A DNA stretch of 32,183 bases from Gammaproteobacteria bacterium. GTDB lineage: Bacteria; Pseudomonadota; Gammaproteobacteria; Pseudomonadales; Azotimanducaceae. The stretch covers positions 108,270 to 140,452 of the forward strand of contig NYVG01000015.1 of assembly GCA_002684495.1 (NCBI GenBank). The letters are read 5' to 3'. The first letter of the stretch is position 1. Each line of letters starts with the position of its first letter. The translations under genes were made by a program, and so were the position numbers. Shown here in pieces: positions 14,184 through 29,090 of this stretch. The notes beneath the pieces are model-generated. The model was not told the origin of the DNA and did no database searches. It saw only the letters and a program-made list of their open reading frames with translations.

Positions 14184-15323
14184 ATGACTAATCTTCAGCC
14201 GTTGACAATCACCATCACTGACGAGGTTATTACGGACCTTAAGAACCGCCTTGCCCTTACCCGTTGGCCAGAGCAAGAGACCGTCACTGATTGGACTCAG
14301 GGCGTTCCTCTGGCTTACCAGCAAAGCCTCATGGATTATTGGGCTAACGACTATGATCACCAGCGCTTAGCCAACCGTCTAAACGCTTATGATAACTTTG
14401 TTACCGAAGTAAATGGCTTAGACATCCACTTCTTACACGTGCGTTCGAGCCACGATCATGCGCGCCCGCTACTGCTCAGCCACGGCTGGCCCGGCTCTAT
14501 TGTGGAATTTTTGAAAGTGATCGGGCCTTTAACTGAGCCTCAGGCCCATGGCTTGGATGCGACACAAGCATTCCATTTAGTGATCCCATCTCTGCCCGGT
14601 TATGGGTTTTCCGGCAAACCTACGCAAACCGGTTGGAGCGTGGAAAAAATGGCAGAAACTTTTGCAATGCTAATGGACCGCCTCGGCTATGACCGCTATT
14701 TGGCCCAAGGCGGCGACTGGGGCTCTGCGATAACTACTGCCATTGGCCGGCAAGACCCAGAGCACTGTATTGGCATCCATCTCAATATGATCACGGTACC
14801 ACCCGACCCTAGTGCCGATGATCTGACCGAGCAGGAATTATCGGGACTAGCAGGATTGGCGCATTACCAAGAATGGGATTCGGGCTACTCAAAACAGCAG
14901 GCCACCCGGCCGCAAACCCTCAGCTACGGTCTGGCCGACTCACCCAGCGGACAAGCGGCATGGATTTTAGAAAAGTACTGGTCTTGGACTGATTGCAACG
15001 GTGACCCAGAAAATATTCTCAGCCGCGACGAAATGCTCGACAACATTATGGTGTATTGGCTAAACAATGCTTCTGCATCTTCAGGGCGACTGTATTGGCA
15101 TAGCTTCGGAAAGGGGCAACAGCCTACCCAAGTGCATGTGCCCATGGGCGGCACGATATTTCCAAAGGAAATTTTCCGCACCAGCCAGCGTTTTGCCGAG
15201 CGCATTTACACAAAGATTATCTATTGGAATGAACGACCGAAAGGCGGCCACTTTGCCGCCTTCGAGCAACCAGAGACCTATGTCGAGGAGGTACGGACGT
15301 GCTTTGCCCTGGTCGGCGACTAG
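14184..15323 (+). CDS. Epoxide hydrolase, alpha/beta fold with EHN domain
   Basis: The 379-residue protein opens with the epoxide hydrolase N-terminal domain (about residues 1-110: ITDEVITDLKNRLALTRWPE). The hydrolase core carries the oxyanion motif HGWPGS (100-105). The nucleophile is Asp178 in GGDWGS, and the catalytic His356 lies in KGGHFAAFEQP. Candidate ring-activating tyrosines lie in YWSWTD and YWLNN. These features match juvenile-hormone/limonene-type microsomal-like epoxide hydrolases, which add water to an epoxide to give a diol. The start follows a TTTGGAGAA ribosome site. The stop overlaps the convergent dioxygenase gene by four bases. With the dehalogenase-like gene at 5785 it could form a haloalcohol-to-diol route, but the two are 8 kb apart. 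Confidence 0.92.
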   Translation: MTNLQPLTITITDEVITDLKNRLALTRWPEQETVTDWTQGVPLAYQQSLMDYWANDYDHQRLANRLNAYDNFVTEVNGLDIHFLHVRSSHDHARPLLLSHGWPGSIVEFLKVIGPLTEPQAHGLDATQAFHLVIPSLPGYGFSGKPTQTGWSVEKMAETFAMLMDRLGYDRYLAQGGDWGSAITTAIGRQDPEHCIGIHLNMITVPPDPSADDLTEQELSGLAGLAHYQEWDSGYSKQQATRPQTLSYGLADSPSGQAAWILEKYWSWTDCNGDPENILSRDEMLDNIMVYWLNNASASSGRLYWHSFGKGQQPTQVHVPMGGTIFPKEIFRTSQRFAERIYTKIIYWNERPKGGHFAAFEQPETYVEEVRTCFALVGD

Positions 15324-16156
15324 CGCGCTGCGGCTAAAGGCACGCCCTCTACGGTAATTCGATGCATTAAACGGCGGTGACCGTGGTAGTCGTTCACCGC
15401 CAAATGCCAGGTCGCGCGATTATCCCAAAACGCCAGAGAGCCAGGCCGCCAATGAAAACGGCAGGTGTGCTCGGGTCGCCCAATATGGCCATACAGGAAT
15501 TGCAGCAACGGTGCGGATTCTTGGACTGACCAACCCTCAAAGTGTGTGGTAAAGCCCGGATTCACATACAAGATCTCACGCTCGGATAGCGGGTGGCGAA
15601 TCACTACGGGATGAACCGCGTCCTGAGTCGCTTGGTCGGCATTGGCAAATAATCCGGTCACATCATCTGGCAACGCTGCTGACTGGCCAAATACATGACG
15701 CGAGGAATGTACCGCCCGCAACGAGCGCAACATGTCTTTAATGCCTTCCGACAAAGTATCGAAAGCGACCCCACAACTGGCAAATAAGGTATCACCGCCG
15801 GTTGTTGGCACCTCTTTGGCATACAGTAAGGATCCTAACGCTGGAATCTGATCGTATGAATGATCGGTATGCCAACCGCCACCAATATTGAATTGCTGAT
15901 CTGGCTCTTTACGCACCTCGGCGATCTGCGGGTAGTTTTCTACTGGTGTAAAGAATCTGTTGATATTGATCTCACCCCAATGTTCAGCGAGTGCGATGTG
16001 CGCCTCCGGGGTTAATTGTTGGTCACGAAAAAACAGCACGCCGTATTGGGCATGGGCCTCGCGCAACTCGGCCAAGGTCGCTGGGTCCAAGTGGTTTAGA
16101 TCGACACCAGCGACTTCTGCGCCCACGGCACCCTGAGGTTGAACCGTTATACCCAT
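15320..16156 (-). CDS. TauD/TfdA-family Fe(II)/2-oxoglutarate dioxygenase
   Basis: The 278-residue protein has the facial triad of the family: His96 and Asp98 in GGWHTDHSYD, and the distal His (about 251) in FWDNRATWHLAV. The 2-oxoglutarate-binding Arg is in the following RRLMHRI segment. Family members hydroxylate a carbon next to a heteroatom, as in taurine or 2,4-D cleavage, or oxidise acyl or aryl compounds; the substrate here cannot be assigned. GTG 16162 is an alternative start, but ATG 16156 has AGGAG eight bases upstream. It is the last gene of the leftward run thioredoxin-fusion/UGSC/MFS/dioxygenase, with a 49-bp gap to the transporter. Confidence 0.9.
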   Translation of the reverse strand: MGITVQPQGAVGAEVAGVDLNHLDPATLAELREAHAQYGVLFFRDQQLTPEAHIALAEHWGEININRFFTPVENYPQIAEVRKEPDQQFNIGGGWHTDHSYDQIPALGSLLYAKEVPTTGGDTLFASCGVAFDTLSEGIKDMLRSLRAVHSSRHVFGQSAALPDDVTGLFANADQATQDAVHPVVIRHPLSEREILYVNPGFTTHFEGWSVQESAPLLQFLYGHIGRPEHTCRFHWRPGSLAFWDNRATWHLAVNDYHGHRRLMHRITVEGVPLAAAR

Positions 16157-16205
16157 GACCACTCTCCTATTGACTGTGTCGATGATCCAACAACTTGGCC
16201 ATGTG

Positions 16206-17477
16206 TCAAGCTGCAGAAGATTGCGCTGATCCTTTCTGTTTAGGCGGCGGCACGAAAAAGATCATGACTCCGGAGGCCACATTCAATCCCGCTACAAGCA
16301 GTAGCGCGCCCGCATATTCGCCAGTCACATCTCGATAATAAGACACCAGCCAGGGCGCTGCGGCGCCAAGGGCTAACGCGTACGGCATGGCAGCGCCACG
16401 AATGCTACCGAGATAACGACGACCAAAGAACGATGCCCAGATGACTTCCTGCATTGGAATCATGCCGCCCCAACCGGTACCAAGGAGAAAGAATGCCGCA
16501 TAGATCCAAAAGATCTCTTGGGCGGCTACTGCAAAGATGATGCAAAACAACGCAACACCGCATATGGATGCCGATATTGCCGCTAAGGGTTTTACCGGAC
16601 TGCGATCAATAAGGTAGCCCCATACAGGTTTCGACAACATTGCTGGAACCGAAGCGACCGCTATGGCCCATGCAGCGATCTCACGGCTGAGGCCGTTATC
16701 GGTCAGGTACGGTAACGCCAGCAGCAGCACCACAATGATGTTGACGGAGAAACAACCAAAGGCCACTACCAGGGCATAAAATGAGAACGTTCGTAGTGCC
16801 TCGGCTCGAGTATAGGAATTAGCAAATTCCGTTTGCGCCCGATCGCCCTCGCCAGCAGCCACCTGTTGCGAGTTCAAACCGTCCGGGTAGAGACCAAAAT
16901 CTTCCGGCGCACGACGCATCATCAAAGCGACCGGATACAACAGCACCGCCGAGCCAATACCCAATACAACCCAAGCCTGTCGCCAGCCGATAGTATCTAC
17001 CAAATAGGTCGCCAATGGCGTTAGGACAATACCGCCAAATGACACACCCATTGCAGCGATCGCCACCACGATGCCACGGTTAACCACGAACCATTTCGAG
17101 AGGGTTACATTGACCACCAAATTACCGATCATGGCGCAGCCGACGGTCACCACAACTCCGTTCAACAACCACCACATCCACAGCGATTGAATCCAGGTGT
17201 GCATGCACAATCCAGCAACCAAAATAGTGGCACCAGTGAGCATAATGGGCCGCCCGCCAAGGCGGTCTACTTTAGTGCCTAGGTAGACCCCGACTGCTGC
17301 CATTACCCCCTGGCCAATGGTACGGGTGAGGGTAAAGTCCGCCCTAGTCCACCCTAACTCGGCCAACATGGGCTCCATAAAGGCCCCGAGGACGTAACTG
17401 TATATGCCAATCGCAACAAATTGCGCGACGAACGCCGCGCCGACTATGTAGTAGCCGTAGTAAATCGGTCTCTGCAA
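16206..17477 (-). CDS. MFS transporter (monocarboxylate/OFA-like)
   Basis: The 423-residue protein has about twelve membrane spans. It starts QRPIYYGYYIVGAAFVAQF, typical of the monocarboxylate porter and oxalate:formate antiporter-like branch. The family loop GTKVDRLGGRPIMLTG lies between spans 2 and 3. The first codon is TTG with AGGGAG five bases upstream. The protein probably imports or exports an organic acid. It sits 48 bp downstream of the UGSC selenoprotein and 49 bp upstream of a TauD-type dioxygenase on the same strand. It may therefore carry the compound these enzymes act on, which is inference from position. Confidence 0.87.
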   Translation of the reverse strand: MQRPIYYGYYIVGAAFVAQFVAIGIYSYVLGAFMEPMLAELGWTRADFTLTRTIGQGVMAAVGVYLGTKVDRLGGRPIMLTGATILVAGLCMHTWIQSLWMWWLLNGVVVTVGCAMIGNLVVNVTLSKWFVVNRGIVVAIAAMGVSFGGIVLTPLATYLVDTIGWRQAWVVLGIGSAVLLYPVALMMRRAPEDFGLYPDGLNSQQVAAGEGDRAQTEFANSYTRAEALRTFSFYALVVAFGCFSVNIIVVLLLALPYLTDNGLSREIAAWAIAVASVPAMLSKPVWGYLIDRSPVKPLAAISASICGVALFCIIFAVAAQEIFWIYAAFFLLGTGWGGMIPMQEVIWASFFGRRYLGSIRGAAMPYALALGAAAPWLVSYYRDVTGEYAGALLLVAGLNVASGVMIFFVPPPKQKGSAQSSAA

Positions 17478-17525: not shown

Positions 17526-18047
17526 CTATGCGCGCAACGCGGCGATCACTTCGTCAACAATGGCATCTGCCTTAGAGCTCATTTGCTGATCGTCGGCATC
17601 TTGAATCGGATGCGCAACAAATACCCTTTTAGCATCCTGCATGCCTAATGCTTCCGCTTGGGTTCGCGCTGCATCAACAAATTCAGATGACGCTATCGAC
17701 ACTGCCGGAGTACCCTGAATCTCAAACCATACCGTGTCATGCAAACTGCACGAGGTACAAGAGCCTCAGTCAGCTAGGGCCTCAACAACAAAGTCGTTGG
17801 CTGCATTAATCTCGGCACGCAGAGCGTCGGGTGCAGGCTTGGAAAAGGTCGGCTTGGAATATCGCGTTATTTCCACTTGGGGTAGTCGTTGCTCAAACGC
17901 CTCTTGCAGACGATCAAGAAGTACACTGCCACGCGGCTTGGATATATCTAAAAAGGCCACTTTGCCTTTGATCGCTTCAGGTCGCGGCGTGATCTTCCGA
18001 TCGAGAGGCACTGCCTCATTGGTCGGATCGAGAATCGTTAATGCCAT
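17526..18047 (-). CDS. UGSC-family selenoprotein (in-frame TGA read as selenocysteine)
   Basis: One 174-codon gene is split by TGA at 17768-17766. The first part (residues 1-93, MALTILDPTNEAV to VVEALAD) and second part (GSCTSCSLHDTV to EVIAALRA) share the frame and join at Sec94. The product reads Sec94-Gly-Ser-Cys97-Thr-Ser-Cys100, the hallmark of the family databases call UGSC (seleno)protein. The second half alone lacks a ribosome site and a sensible start. ATG 18047 has a perfect TAGGAGG six bases upstream; the frame is open to 18128 but overlaps the preceding gene. KPTFSKPAP before the motif and FVAHPIQD after it are further family blocks. The function is unknown; Sec/Cys spacing suggests redox or electrophile chemistry. 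The cell must have SelA, SelB, SelC and SelD, not seen here. Confidence 0.88.
17731..17756 (-). promoter_or_regulatory. Candidate bacterial SECIS element
   Basis: Read on the minus strand, the RNA after UGA can fold with arms UCGUGCA (17753-17747) and UGCAUGA (17743-17737) around the loop GUU (17746-17744). A lower ACC/GGU helix extends it across a three-base bulge. The apical loop starts 19 bases after the UGA and begins with G. From memory, published bacterial SECIS rules ask for an apical loop about 16-37 bases after UGA with a G in its first two positions, so the geometry fits. SelB would bind here to direct selenocysteine insertion. Confidence 0.75.
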
Positions 18048-18090
18048 TTCTGTCCTCCTATTTTCGCTGAGTTTACAAAAACCTTGGCGT

Positions 18091-19671
18091 TTACGTGCCA
18101 ATTTTTTGTGATACAGGTATGGATCCACGACTGCCTGTTAACCAGCCGTGGAAACTGCCAGTAAATTTTCCTGCCTCACTACCGGCAACGACGATATGAA
18201 TATCAGCATCGTCTTTGAACTTTTCGACCACACGATCAAGTTGTTCGTCACTCATTTGTGCGGCTTGGGCAGGTTTTAAACCAACACCGGACGCATCATC
18301 TGCGATGAGTTGGCGATAGGTTTTCGCGCTGACTTCTTGCATGCGCCGGCGCACATCGGCTTTAGAGAATTCACCGCCTCTATTGAATGTATCCACATGT
18401 TCTGGCGATACCACCAACAATGTATTAGTAAAACTATATGCACGGGCATTGAGGATGGTCTGGTTAGCCTGACCGAGTGTGCCGGCCAATGCCGGTCCGT
18501 CGAGAGAACCCTCATCAACCGTCAATACCGGCCCGCTGGTCATTGCAAAAATAGTGACTACAGACTCGTCCGGTTGATAGCCCCGCTCTACGTGCAGGGG
18601 TTCCCAAGAGGAGCGTTCTTCCCATTCAGCGAAGCACATGGTGAATTTCATCGGATTAGACAGGGTCGAGCGCTCTGTACCCCCAGGTATGGCGCCGCCA
18701 ATGTTGCGCACTGTTAAGCGCAGCGCGCGGCCTATTGTTGCATTCGCTCGGTTTCCCTGACCAAGCGCCCCTATACCCATATTCATGCCTATACGGTGCC
18801 GGATTGGGCCATTTACTACCATCACAGGACTTGCACCCATGGTCGTTGCCATTACCCCGTGGATATTAAAATCATCGGTACAGACGGCTTCAACAGCCGC
18901 GATGACCACGGGTAGATATTCGGGCTTACAACCCGCCATAACGCAATTAATGGCAACTTTTTCCACCGTAACTTCGCCCATATTCGGTGGCATAACGGCA
19001 ATAACTTCTTGCGGGTCGCGACTGGTGCCTGTGAGCATGCGTACCACCCGCTCTGGGGTCGGTGGAATTACCGGCAAGCCATCAGAAAAACCCTGATCGA
19101 ACATAAATTCAAATTCATCATCCAAACTGCCCACCTCTATGCGATGCGCGCGGATAGGACTGTTATCTGCTTCTGCCTGCAAGCGATCCGCATGAGCCGG
19201 GTCTACCGACAACGAACCGCAACCTGGCCGCCACTCGGGCAACGCCGACCAATCTAACCCTAGATCGCCGCCCGGCCCCTGTTCGAGTAATGAGCGAGCT
19301 AAGCTTTGCCAATCGTCTCTTACAAAACCCACCTGCTCGGCAACGACACTGCCTGATGCATCTATGACCAATAGAGTCGGCACTGTCTCAACGTCTGTTG
19401 CAAAGGAGACTTTTAGCGCACTGTCATCGAGTAACGAAAACGGCAGATCAAAGTCCTGCTGGAGCTTTTTATTGCCCTCTGCGGTTTGCCCAATCACTAG
19501 AAAATCCAAGTGTTGCGCCAGCCCACTGTGCATGGCTGCAAGTACGGGCATCACCTCTCGACAGGTCGGACAATCCTCTTTAACAAAACAGACAATACTT
19601 TGGCTATTGCCAGAGAAATCCCGCAGCGAGCCAGAAAGATCGGTCAATTGAAACGGCGACAGTGAAAGCAT
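18091..19671 (-). CDS. Thioredoxin-fold fusion protein, partner of the UGSC selenoprotein
   Basis: The 526-residue protein starts with a thioredoxin/peroxiredoxin-like domain (about 1-130): Cys34-Pro-Thr-Cys37 in KEDCPTCREVMP and the cis-proline in VETVPTLLVID. No signal peptide is visible, so it is cytoplasmic. After a linker with a CGS triplet (151-153) comes a large domain (about 185-526) that I cannot assign. It has DGLPVIPPTPERVVRML, Cys242-x3-Cys246 in NCVMAGCKPEY, and glycine-rich runs (GIGALGQGNRANATIG, NIGGAIPGGTERS). The start has a GAGGGGGG ribosome site. It precedes the selenoprotein by 43 bp on the same strand. A likely role is supplying electrons to, or working as a subunit with, the selenoprotein. 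Confidence 0.8.
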   Translation of the reverse strand: MLSLSPFQLTDLSGSLRDFSGNSQSIVCFVKEDCPTCREVMPVLAAMHSGLAQHLDFLVIGQTAEGNKKLQQDFDLPFSLLDDSALKVSFATDVETVPTLLVIDASGSVVAEQVGFVRDDWQSLARSLLEQGPGGDLGLDWSALPEWRPGCGSLSVDPAHADRLQAEADNSPIRAHRIEVGSLDDEFEFMFDQGFSDGLPVIPPTPERVVRMLTGTSRDPQEVIAVMPPNMGEVTVEKVAINCVMAGCKPEYLPVVIAAVEAVCTDDFNIHGVMATTMGASPVMVVNGPIRHRIGMNMGIGALGQGNRANATIGRALRLTVRNIGGAIPGGTERSTLSNPMKFTMCFAEWEERSSWEPLHVERGYQPDESVVTIFAMTSGPVLTVDEGSLDGPALAGTLGQANQTILNARAYSFTNTLLVVSPEHVDTFNRGGEFSKADVRRRMQEVSAKTYRQLIADDASGVGLKPAQAAQMSDEQLDRVVEKFKDDADIHIVVAGSEAGKFTGSFHGWLTGSRGSIPVSQKIGT

Positions 19672-20955: not shown

Positions 20956-20983
20956 GGCCAAATTGGAATTTTGGGGGGATGCT

Positions 20984-21829
20984 ATGGCGACGATAGAGGG
21001 TTATCAATCAATCGAAGTTTCGAGCTTAACGCCGCATATCGGCGCTGAAGTTAGCGGTGTGGATTTACGCCAGCCATTGAGTAACGAGCAGTTCAGCGAA
21101 ATCTATCGCGCTTGGTTGGACTGGCAGGTTCTGGTGTTTCGCGAGCAGGACATTGACCGCGATCAGCACAAATCCTTTGCCCGTAAGTTCGGCACCTTGC
21201 ACGTACACCCGATGCAGCACAGCTATGGCGGCGACCCGGAAATTCTCACGGTAAAAACCACTAAAGATTCTGCCTACACCGCCGGTAACGCTTGGCATAC
21301 CGATGTGACCTGTGATGCGATACCACCGATGGCATCCATGCTCTTGATCAAAGAACCGCCTGTTAACGGCGGTGGCGACACTATGTTTGCGAACATGTAC
21401 TTGGCCTACGACCTGCTGAGCGATGTTATGAAAGAGTTATTGGACGGACTCGTTGCGGTGCACAATGGCGCAATCCCTTATCTCGGGAACTATCGGGTAG
21501 CACCACCAGGGGATAAGGAATATCCACGCAACGAGCATCCGGTGATTGTTACCCACCCAGAGACGGGGAAGAAAGTTCTGTTCGTTAACAGTGGCTTTAC
21601 CTCACACATTAAAGGTATGCGCAATTGGGAGAGTCGCGCATTACTGGACGCGCTGCTGACACATATTGCCACTACCGCACGACTGACGTGTCGCGTGGAA
21701 TGGCAACCGAATACATTAACTTTGTGGGATAACCGCTGCACCCAACACCACGCGGTATGGGACTACTGGCCAGAAAGCCGCTACGGCGAGCGCGTCAGCA
21801 TTTTGGGCAATCAACGCCCTCAGGCCTGA
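20984..21829 (+). CDS. TauD/TfdA-family Fe(II)/2-oxoglutarate dioxygenase
   Basis: The 281-residue product has His105 and Asp107 in NAWHTDVTCD, the distal His at about 255 in LWDNRCTQHHAV, and a GERVSIL tail containing the 2-oxoglutarate Arg. The N-terminus HIGAEVSGVDLRQPLS is the family start. ATG 20984 is preceded by a GGGGGG tract five bases away; the frame is open to TTG 20963, which has no site. This is the second such dioxygenase in the window. The two differ around the active site (HTDHSYD against HTDVTCD), so they probably have different substrates. The stop overlaps the convergent YhcB gene by ten bases. Confidence 0.92.
   Translation: MATIEGYQSIEVSSLTPHIGAEVSGVDLRQPLSNEQFSEIYRAWLDWQVLVFREQDIDRDQHKSFARKFGTLHVHPMQHSYGGDPEILTVKTTKDSAYTAGNAWHTDVTCDAIPPMASMLLIKEPPVNGGGDTMFANMYLAYDLLSDVMKELLDGLVAVHNGAIPYLGNYRVAPPGDKEYPRNEHPVIVTHPETGKKVLFVNSGFTSHIKGMRNWESRALLDALLTHIATTARLTCRVEWQPNTLTLWDNRCTQHHAVWDYWPESRYGERVSILGNQRPQA

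Positions 21830-29014: not shown

Positions 29015-29090
<76 letters not shown>

Follow-up and report, generated by a model that had tools for sequence, protein, structure and literature searches.

On the minus strand of the window, the whole 32,183-nucleotide stretch of gammaproteobacterial DNA analyzed here, two short reading frames abut at an in-frame TGA. Are they the remains of a broken gene or the halves of one selenoprotein gene and, if the latter, what might its product do? A sequence-only reading had joined them as a single gene of the UGSC family. The features discussed below are collected in Table 1.

Table 1. Features of the UGSC locus in window coordinates
Feature	Coordinates	Strand	Basis and remarks
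UGSC-family selenoprotein gene	17526..18047	-	173 residues, Sec94; sequence reading and profile matches
In-frame UGA read as Sec	17766..17768	-	TGA kept in relatives; Sec machinery in genome
Shine-Dalgarno sequence (AGGAGG) of UGSC gene	18054..18059	-	Direct reading; 6 bases before the ATG at 18047
Predicted SECIS apical hairpin, CGUGCA-GUU-UGCAUG	17738..17752	-	Bases 17 to 31 counted from the U of UGA
Partner gene: N-terminal thioredoxin-like domain and unnamed core	18091..19671	-	526 residues; 43 bases upstream of the UGSC start
Thioredoxin-like domain of partner, CPTC motif	19318..19629	-	Residues 15 to 118; AhpC-TSA and Redoxin matches
Partner core	18094..19149	-	Residues 175 to 526; conserved DGLP, MAGC, and K342; no family over cut-off
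MFS transporter	16206..17477	-	Same strand, downstream; best NCBIfam match (L-lactate/oxalate type) falls below cut-off
TauD-family dioxygenase	15320..16162	-	Same strand, downstream of UGSC gene

An intact UGSC gene with a selenocysteine codon

Read through its lone in-frame TGA, the frame spans 173 codons and ends at a TAG, and profile matches cross the TGA: the protein scored 157 bits against PF24696 (cut-off 25; residues 4 to 172) and 156.1 bits against NF041046 (cut-off 125; residues 29 to 172). We confirm it as a genuine Sec-containing gene of the UGSC family (PF24696/NF041046), with the coordinates, strand, and TGA site that the sequence-only reading had given. Direct reading also bears out the Sec-Gly-Ser-Cys-Thr-Ser-Cys motif, followed by sequence running to the natural stop, and the perfect Shine-Dalgarno sequence that had been attributed to the first half (18059 to 18054). 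In alignment, the U/C-G-S-C motif of the window protein is in register with that of its homologues, which, as had been expected, run on past the TGA position with conserved sequence rather than all stopping there.

Across 97 related genomes, exactly one TGA was found in 117 of the 121 listed UGSC places, and TAA or TAG in none. Of the four places without TGA, two are fragments that stop short of the motif, one is a sub-cut-off piece (G052:C110), and one is a degenerate copy that has Ser in place of Sec and lacks a partner gene (described below) within 2 kb (G041:C111, also L066). NG86 dN/dS between the window gene and its closest homologue, L055, was 0.032 before the TGA, 0.031 after it, and 0.022 beyond the SECIS region, values to be read with dS near saturation (1.4 to 2.2); dS was not computable in four of the nine comparisons made.

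The genome, a draft that is 98.66% complete with 5.39% contamination, has the machinery for selenocysteine insertion. A search for selA, selB, selC, and selD had been suggested as a check on the gene: selA (540 bits), selB (377 bits), and selD (268 bits) are present, all over cut-off, as is a tRNA-Sec (68.3 bits; Rfam gathering score, 47), which ARAGORN called as tRNA-SeC with anticodon tca. Contig C8 holds selA, selB, and tRNA-Sec, whereas selD lies on the window's own contig, C7. There, selD (G000:C7:14521-15426) and an NADH-oxidase-like match (C7:15640-16263; L007, L026) were each assigned an open frame of 735 residues, probably one Ndh-SelD fusion gene.

We predict a SECIS hairpin just downstream of the UGA. 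It emerged when 26 distinct type-A sequences were folded to a consensus, and subtypes A and B both have it, with just ∼23 to 30% identity between their proteins. Synonymous choice around it is nearly frozen: in subtype A (40 sequences), normalized codon entropy was 0.09 at codons +5 to +11 (6 sites), compared with 0.85 at sites outside +1 to +16 (64 sites), and in subtype C (15 sequences), which has a different hairpin sequence, the values were 0.04 (7 sites) and 0.82 (44 sites). Rank tests for codon freezing gave 2.8e-5 (subtype A) and 1.2e-5 (subtype C) and are indicative, the window of codons +5 to +11 having been picked after the fold was seen and the sequences being related, not independent. 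By itself, the 50-nt fold downstream of the window's UGA is unremarkable (z = −0.90; equaled or exceeded in stability by 39 of 200 shuffles); the evidence for the hairpin is comparative, not that of a single-sequence fold.

That the TGA is a true stop, making the gene a pseudogene or a sequencing error with a dead second half, has in its favor only that translation table 11 reads TGA as stop, and we reject it as having practically no chance of being correct, given the TGA kept in related genomes, the frozen SECIS codons, the low dN/dS after the TGA, and the Sec machinery of the genome. As far as sequence can tell, the product contains selenium. The further claim that automatic annotation would hide such a gene is somewhat too strong: a curated NCBI model (NF041046) exists, and Cys forms carry the label "UGSC family (seleno)protein" in PLSDB/RefSeq tables.

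Distribution and Cys homologues of the family

Our family search found UGSC genes in 59 of the 97 related genomes and in none of 14 named control genomes; the window's own genome holds three UGSC genes, and every one of them has a separate partner gene. In a sample of 398 genomes across the phylum, where scoring was confined to the top 5 to 8 candidates in each, the family was present in 5. A scan of named genomes with a pattern that has C at the Sec position, and so could find Cys forms only, yielded 13 CGSC homologues: four in haloarchaea, four in Methanobacteriaceae, three in sphingomonads, one in a rhodospirillacean, and one in a Cryobacterium metagenome-assembled genome (MAG). On viral contigs, seven stretches matched a search pattern, none of them a relative. 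Plasmids carry both Sec forms (Acidovorax sp. T1 and Paracoccus versutus) and Cys forms (haloarchaea, Roseovarius, Arthrobacter, Variovorax, and Neorhizobium). In Acidovorax sp. T1, the Sec-form UGSC gene and its partner (L145, L154) lie near IS91 and IS1071 elements on p2-T1, an IncP plasmid that also has phn C-P lyase genes and an aroA.

An alignment that included the Cys (CGSC) homologues had been proposed as a second check; in it, Sec/Cys94 and Cys97 were kept in all 92 rows, a count that includes overlapping copies of the same genes and from which two deviant rows, L066 (Ser) and L149 (a Vibrio europaeus fusion, Met), had been set aside beforehand.

A fixed partner gene

Most of the functional information at this locus is carried by the gene directly upstream (18091 to 19671), which was absent from the sequence-only reading. 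No Pfam or NCBIfam model matched its core of ∼350 residues over cut-off, and its plasmid copies are called "hypothetical protein" where annotated (we read the annotation of 12 of 24 plasmid records, picked to spread over lineages; one of the 12 is unannotated).

The partner follows UGSC closely. Our partner-core model matched 60 of the 97 related genomes, compared with 59 for UGSC, and the one extra genome (G037) has a contig-edge fragment only. Of the 121 UGSC places, 116 have a partner no more than 2 kb away, as 117 of the 125 partner places have a UGSC; 115 of 117 pairs are on the same strand, with a median gap of 44 bases between match ends. The exceptions are mostly fragments or sub-threshold pieces; the lone full-length UGSC exception is the degenerate G041:C111, and the partner exceptions also include larger pieces, of 240 to 280 profile positions, without UGSC (G028:C88, G013:C6, and G019:C149). 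Across the phylum, the partner occurs in the same 5 of 398 genomes as UGSC. It is adjacent or nearby at 12 of the 13 Cys loci (haloarchaea, methanogens, alphaproteobacteria, and the actinobacterial MAG), and was not found within the stretch examined at the Methanobrevibacter locus, L135. Phage records gave no partner match.

Gene order was compared in 41 neighborhoods (the window, 39 further loci among the 121 places, and L066). A partner open reading frame (ORF) was recovered in 38; the others are L062, a natural fusion of UGSC and partner in a single 545-residue frame, the degenerate L066, and L075, where ORF picking missed a partner that the partner-core search finds. The partner lies upstream of UGSC in subtypes A and B and downstream in C. 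This shift in gene order with the pair kept, together with the L062 fusion, argues for a complex; we infer that UGSC and its partner form one.

A link to thioredoxin

The N-terminal domain of the window's partner matched AhpC-TSA at 28.3 bits (cut-off 26) and, below cut-off, Redoxin at 24.4 bits (cut-off 26.6). All 20 loci of subtype A, the subtype of the window's gene, have a CxTC motif in the partner N terminus, and none of 18 loci of other subtypes does. On plasmids of Variovorax, Roseovarius, and Arthrobacter, the pair has a gene labeled trxB nearby, joined in Arthrobacter by trxA directly upstream of the partner. With these plasmid proteins as queries, TrxB-like matches were found in 9 of 66 neighborhoods: the three query loci, new strong matches at L073, L080, and L153, weaker ones at L146 and L151, and a partial match at the edge of L060, in the window's own genome. 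By a rough estimate, assuming one or two trxB genes per 3- to 4-Mb genome, chance would place fewer than one TrxB neighbor in 66.

A proposed two-component reductase

With moderate confidence, we propose that UGSC and its partner constitute a two-component, thioredoxin-dependent reductase, because the partner is fixed and is fused to UGSC in L062, because CxTC and trxB tie the pair to thioredoxin, and because Sec/Cys94 and Cys97 are conserved. The partner would bind the substrate and the UGSC subunit would supply the selenolate (or thiolate). Sec94 would attack the bound substrate, or an intermediate, and break a bond reductively; Cys97 would then resolve the Sec94 adduct to a selenenylsulfide, aided in some subtypes by the third Cys of a UxxCxxC motif. 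Thioredoxin would re-reduce the selenenylsulfide, its role being taken here by the CPTC domain fused to the partner and elsewhere by the products of trxB/trxA next door. Electrons would pass from NADPH to TrxB, thioredoxin, UGSC, and substrate, mirroring glycine reductase, whose chain is given as NADPH, thioredoxin reductase, thioredoxin, and selenoprotein in the available parts of PMC3091704 and PMC10298544. Against a thioredoxin-dependent reductase counts the lack of a TrxB-like gene in 57 of the 66 neighborhoods.

Similarity to GrdB and PrdB

A sharper form of this thioredoxin-driven proposal makes UGSC a distant member of the GrdB/PrdB superfamily, the pair acting by Sec attack on a carbon with a leaving group, through a selenoether that Cys would resolve. 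We regard it as a serious candidate that falls somewhat short of probable. In scans of 18950 NCBIfam models, gly_red_sel_B (glycine reductase GrdB) matched 4 of 14 UGSC members (best, 0.015) and 2 of 40 (best, 0.073), PrdB matched 1 of 14, and sarcosine reductase GrdF matched 1 of 40, all below threshold; the L062 fusion aligned with GrdB stretch 333 to 396 at an E value of 0.0075. GrdB was the only outside family to recur among the NCBIfam models, with other, single-family chance matches at similar E values. Using hhalign with three query sets, the Sec/Cys motifs of UGSC and of GRDB-family relatives from the same clade fell in register with P values of 8.4e-5 to 2e-3, ahead of the best of 42 control comparisons (0.0078; controls included a Rossmann-fold SDR cluster), albeit at hhalign probabilities of 14 to 60%. 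GrdB (PF07355, TIGR01917) and PrdB (TIGR04483) also resemble the UGSC pair in having a UxxC/UxxCxxC motif and a second subunit, and their Sec lies ∼80 to 90 residues from the C terminus (Sec350 of 436 in GrdB and Sec152 of 242 in PrdB, according to the available part of PMC3091704), a distance similar to that of Sec94 in the 173-residue window protein.

Other results weigh against such kinship. The window UGSC protein had no GrdB or PrdB match in the NCBIfam scan, Pfam GRDB (PF07355) matched no member of set A1 at E values up to 10, and no UGSC member reached the GRDB cut-off; filing UGSC under PF07355, TIGR01917, or TIGR04483 was rejected for this reason. The partner shows no sequence similarity to GRDB and no NCBIfam match to glycine or proline reductase subunits, including those of the pyruvoyl proprotein kind (GrdE/PrdA); the partner may yet be such a proprotein, a reading for which the sequence gave no support. 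Glycine reductase further differs in having GrdA and GrdC, neither of which is at the UGSC locus. The similarity to GrdB/PrdB is weak but specific, and we treat shared ancestry as a lead, not quite as apt to hold as to fail.

GRDB matches also occur in these genomes: Pfam GRDB matched 35 of the 59 relatives as well as G000:C48:519421-519801 and two more places in the window's own genome. A PrdB-like selenoprotein with the motif U-P-V-C-H-Q-S occurs at 13 of 30 fetched GRDB loci (L099 to L128), sometimes several per genome.

Met-type fusions and a possible non-redox reaction

Plasmid proteins of Vibrio europaeus (L149, 6374 to 8059) and Sporomusa termitida (L150, 6323 to 8047) fuse the partner to a UGSC-like domain that reads "DMGTS" at the Sec motif, so that Met replaces Sec and Cys97 is missing. 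The Vibrio domain has a weak UGSC profile match (1.6e-4); the Sporomusa domain is below profile threshold and was assigned on its resemblance to that of Vibrio. Both fusions adjoin aconitase X and DUF126. As they lack Sec and Cys, a partner can come with a redox-dead domain, which counts against the reductase proposal: either at least part of the family carries out a non-redox reaction, or the Met-type copies have changed function.

One could accordingly read the partner as a lyase or isomerase, with the UGSC domain structural or regulatory and redox merely a switch. Partner Cys248, which 87 of 89 rows and both Met-type fusions retain, would fit this reading, as would the weak resemblance of the partner-core model (pLDDT 77, pTM 0.82) to class I fumarase; that match was the best in Foldseek (E value 5.6e-3, TM 0.27), where nothing reached an E value of ≤1e-3, and we take fumarase kinship no further than a remark, the core having no convincing structural relative. 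K342 behaves differently, being present in 88 of 89 rows and replaced by Glu in both Met-type fusions (some rows are overlapping copies of one gene, and the partner rows L149 and L150 were set aside beforehand). Its loss is correlated with that of Sec/Cys, which suggests that the lysine serves Sec/Cys chemistry. We consider the lyase/isomerase reading unlikely, given the invariance of Sec/Cys94 and Cys97 in all other rows, the cost of keeping Sec for structure, and the thioredoxin linkage.

Predicted fold of UGSC

The accessible parts of PMC2398784 and PMC13188914 call UGSC thioredoxin-like and assign it no function, in line with the statement of the sequence-only reading that the family's biochemical role is unknown. 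The UxxC motif that UGSC has in common with the thioredoxin/peroxiredoxin family fits the supposition that it is a thioredoxin-fold thiol oxidoreductase of general redox defense, but our results make this very unlikely. The structure model (pLDDT 89.8, pTM 0.84) shows the alternating α/β of a flavodoxin-type fold, with Sec94 at the N terminus of a helix directly after a strand. Azoreductases, FMN reductases, flavodoxins, flavodiiron proteins, and lumazine synthases make up most of the 50 Foldseek matches listed, and none of the 50 is a protein of thioredoxin fold; the TM-scores of these matches (0.33 to 0.49) support the general class, not a close relative. None of 40 UGSC members has a Trx-family Pfam match, and the thioredoxin-like domain of the system sits in the partner. 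We therefore disfavor a thioredoxin fold for UGSC and predict a flavodoxin-like one.

UGSC would share its fold class with azoreductase, FMN reductase, and flavodoxin at sequence identities of 10 to 19% among the matches listed; those proteins are known to use flavin, whereas UGSC has a Sec/Cys site instead. A search by sequence for solved relatives found none that is convincing for UGSC, the partner, or the GRDB-like set, and no solved GRDB-family structure for comparison.

Neighboring genes and the substrate

The MFS transporter downstream is possibly part of the UGSC operon; whether the TauD-family dioxygenase beyond it is tied to the UGSC-partner module is uncertain. A second TauD-family dioxygenase (20963 to 21829) lies on the other side, so that the two flank the pair a few kilobases away. 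Other window neighbors encode acyl-CoA dehydrogenases, an epoxide hydrolase, and a CitE-like lyase, and plasmid loci have CoA transferases and parts of TRAP and tripartite carboxylate transporters nearby. These enzymes belong to common families and name no substrate. They suggest catabolism of small organic acids, and the transporters, CaiB, acyl-CoA dehydrogenase, and TauD point to a small organic acid or derivative as the probable substrate, the weakest step of our proposal. A guess at the substrate from Acidovorax sp. T1 was dropped, no paper listed for it being on its catabolism by title.

The label "phosphosulfolactate synthase" occurs near the pair at L142 (3889 to 4356; haloarchaeon) and L152 (4695 to 5483; Arthrobacter). 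With TauD here, that label in two plasmid regions, and an XcbD-like lyase, an organosulfur theme is possible; we do not claim one. The window also contains a tRNA-Gly (gcc) at 29015 to 29090 on the minus strand.

Relation to earlier work and implications

The UGSC literature, as far as its available parts go, consists of selenoproteome surveys (PMC2398784, PMC13188914, PMC9312934, PMC9402790, PMC5029168, and PMC7539508), one of which reports UGSC as 8.2% of the selenoprotein genes in marine metagenomes (PMC9402790). The window gene itself does not differ from the known family: it matches PF24696/NF041046 over its full length, with the same Sec motif and with Cys homologues. UGSC fused to a domain termed "Unknown_1" was reported in PMC2398784, and that domain may be the partner. 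The literature found, in which subscription papers and preprints are largely uncovered, nowhere mentions the obligate pairing, the thioredoxin link, the flavodoxin-like fold, or the similarity to GrdB/PrdB. Relative to it, the fixed partner, the thioredoxin fusion, and the predicted flavodoxin-like fold are additions to a family already known.

In its fullest form, our proposal is of a novel class of thioredoxin-driven Sec/Cys enzymes in archaea and bacteria, partly plasmid-borne, that would cleave bonds reductively in small organic acids and be related by descent to the Sec domain found in glycine and proline reductases; taken as a whole, we hold it tentatively and with some doubt. The partner core, too, is a conserved protein, one to which neither Pfam nor NCBIfam gives a family. 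Together, the fixed partner, the thioredoxin link, and the fold reassignment recast an unknown selenoprotein as a complex open to purification and assay, and the natural Cys forms allow such assays without selenium machinery.
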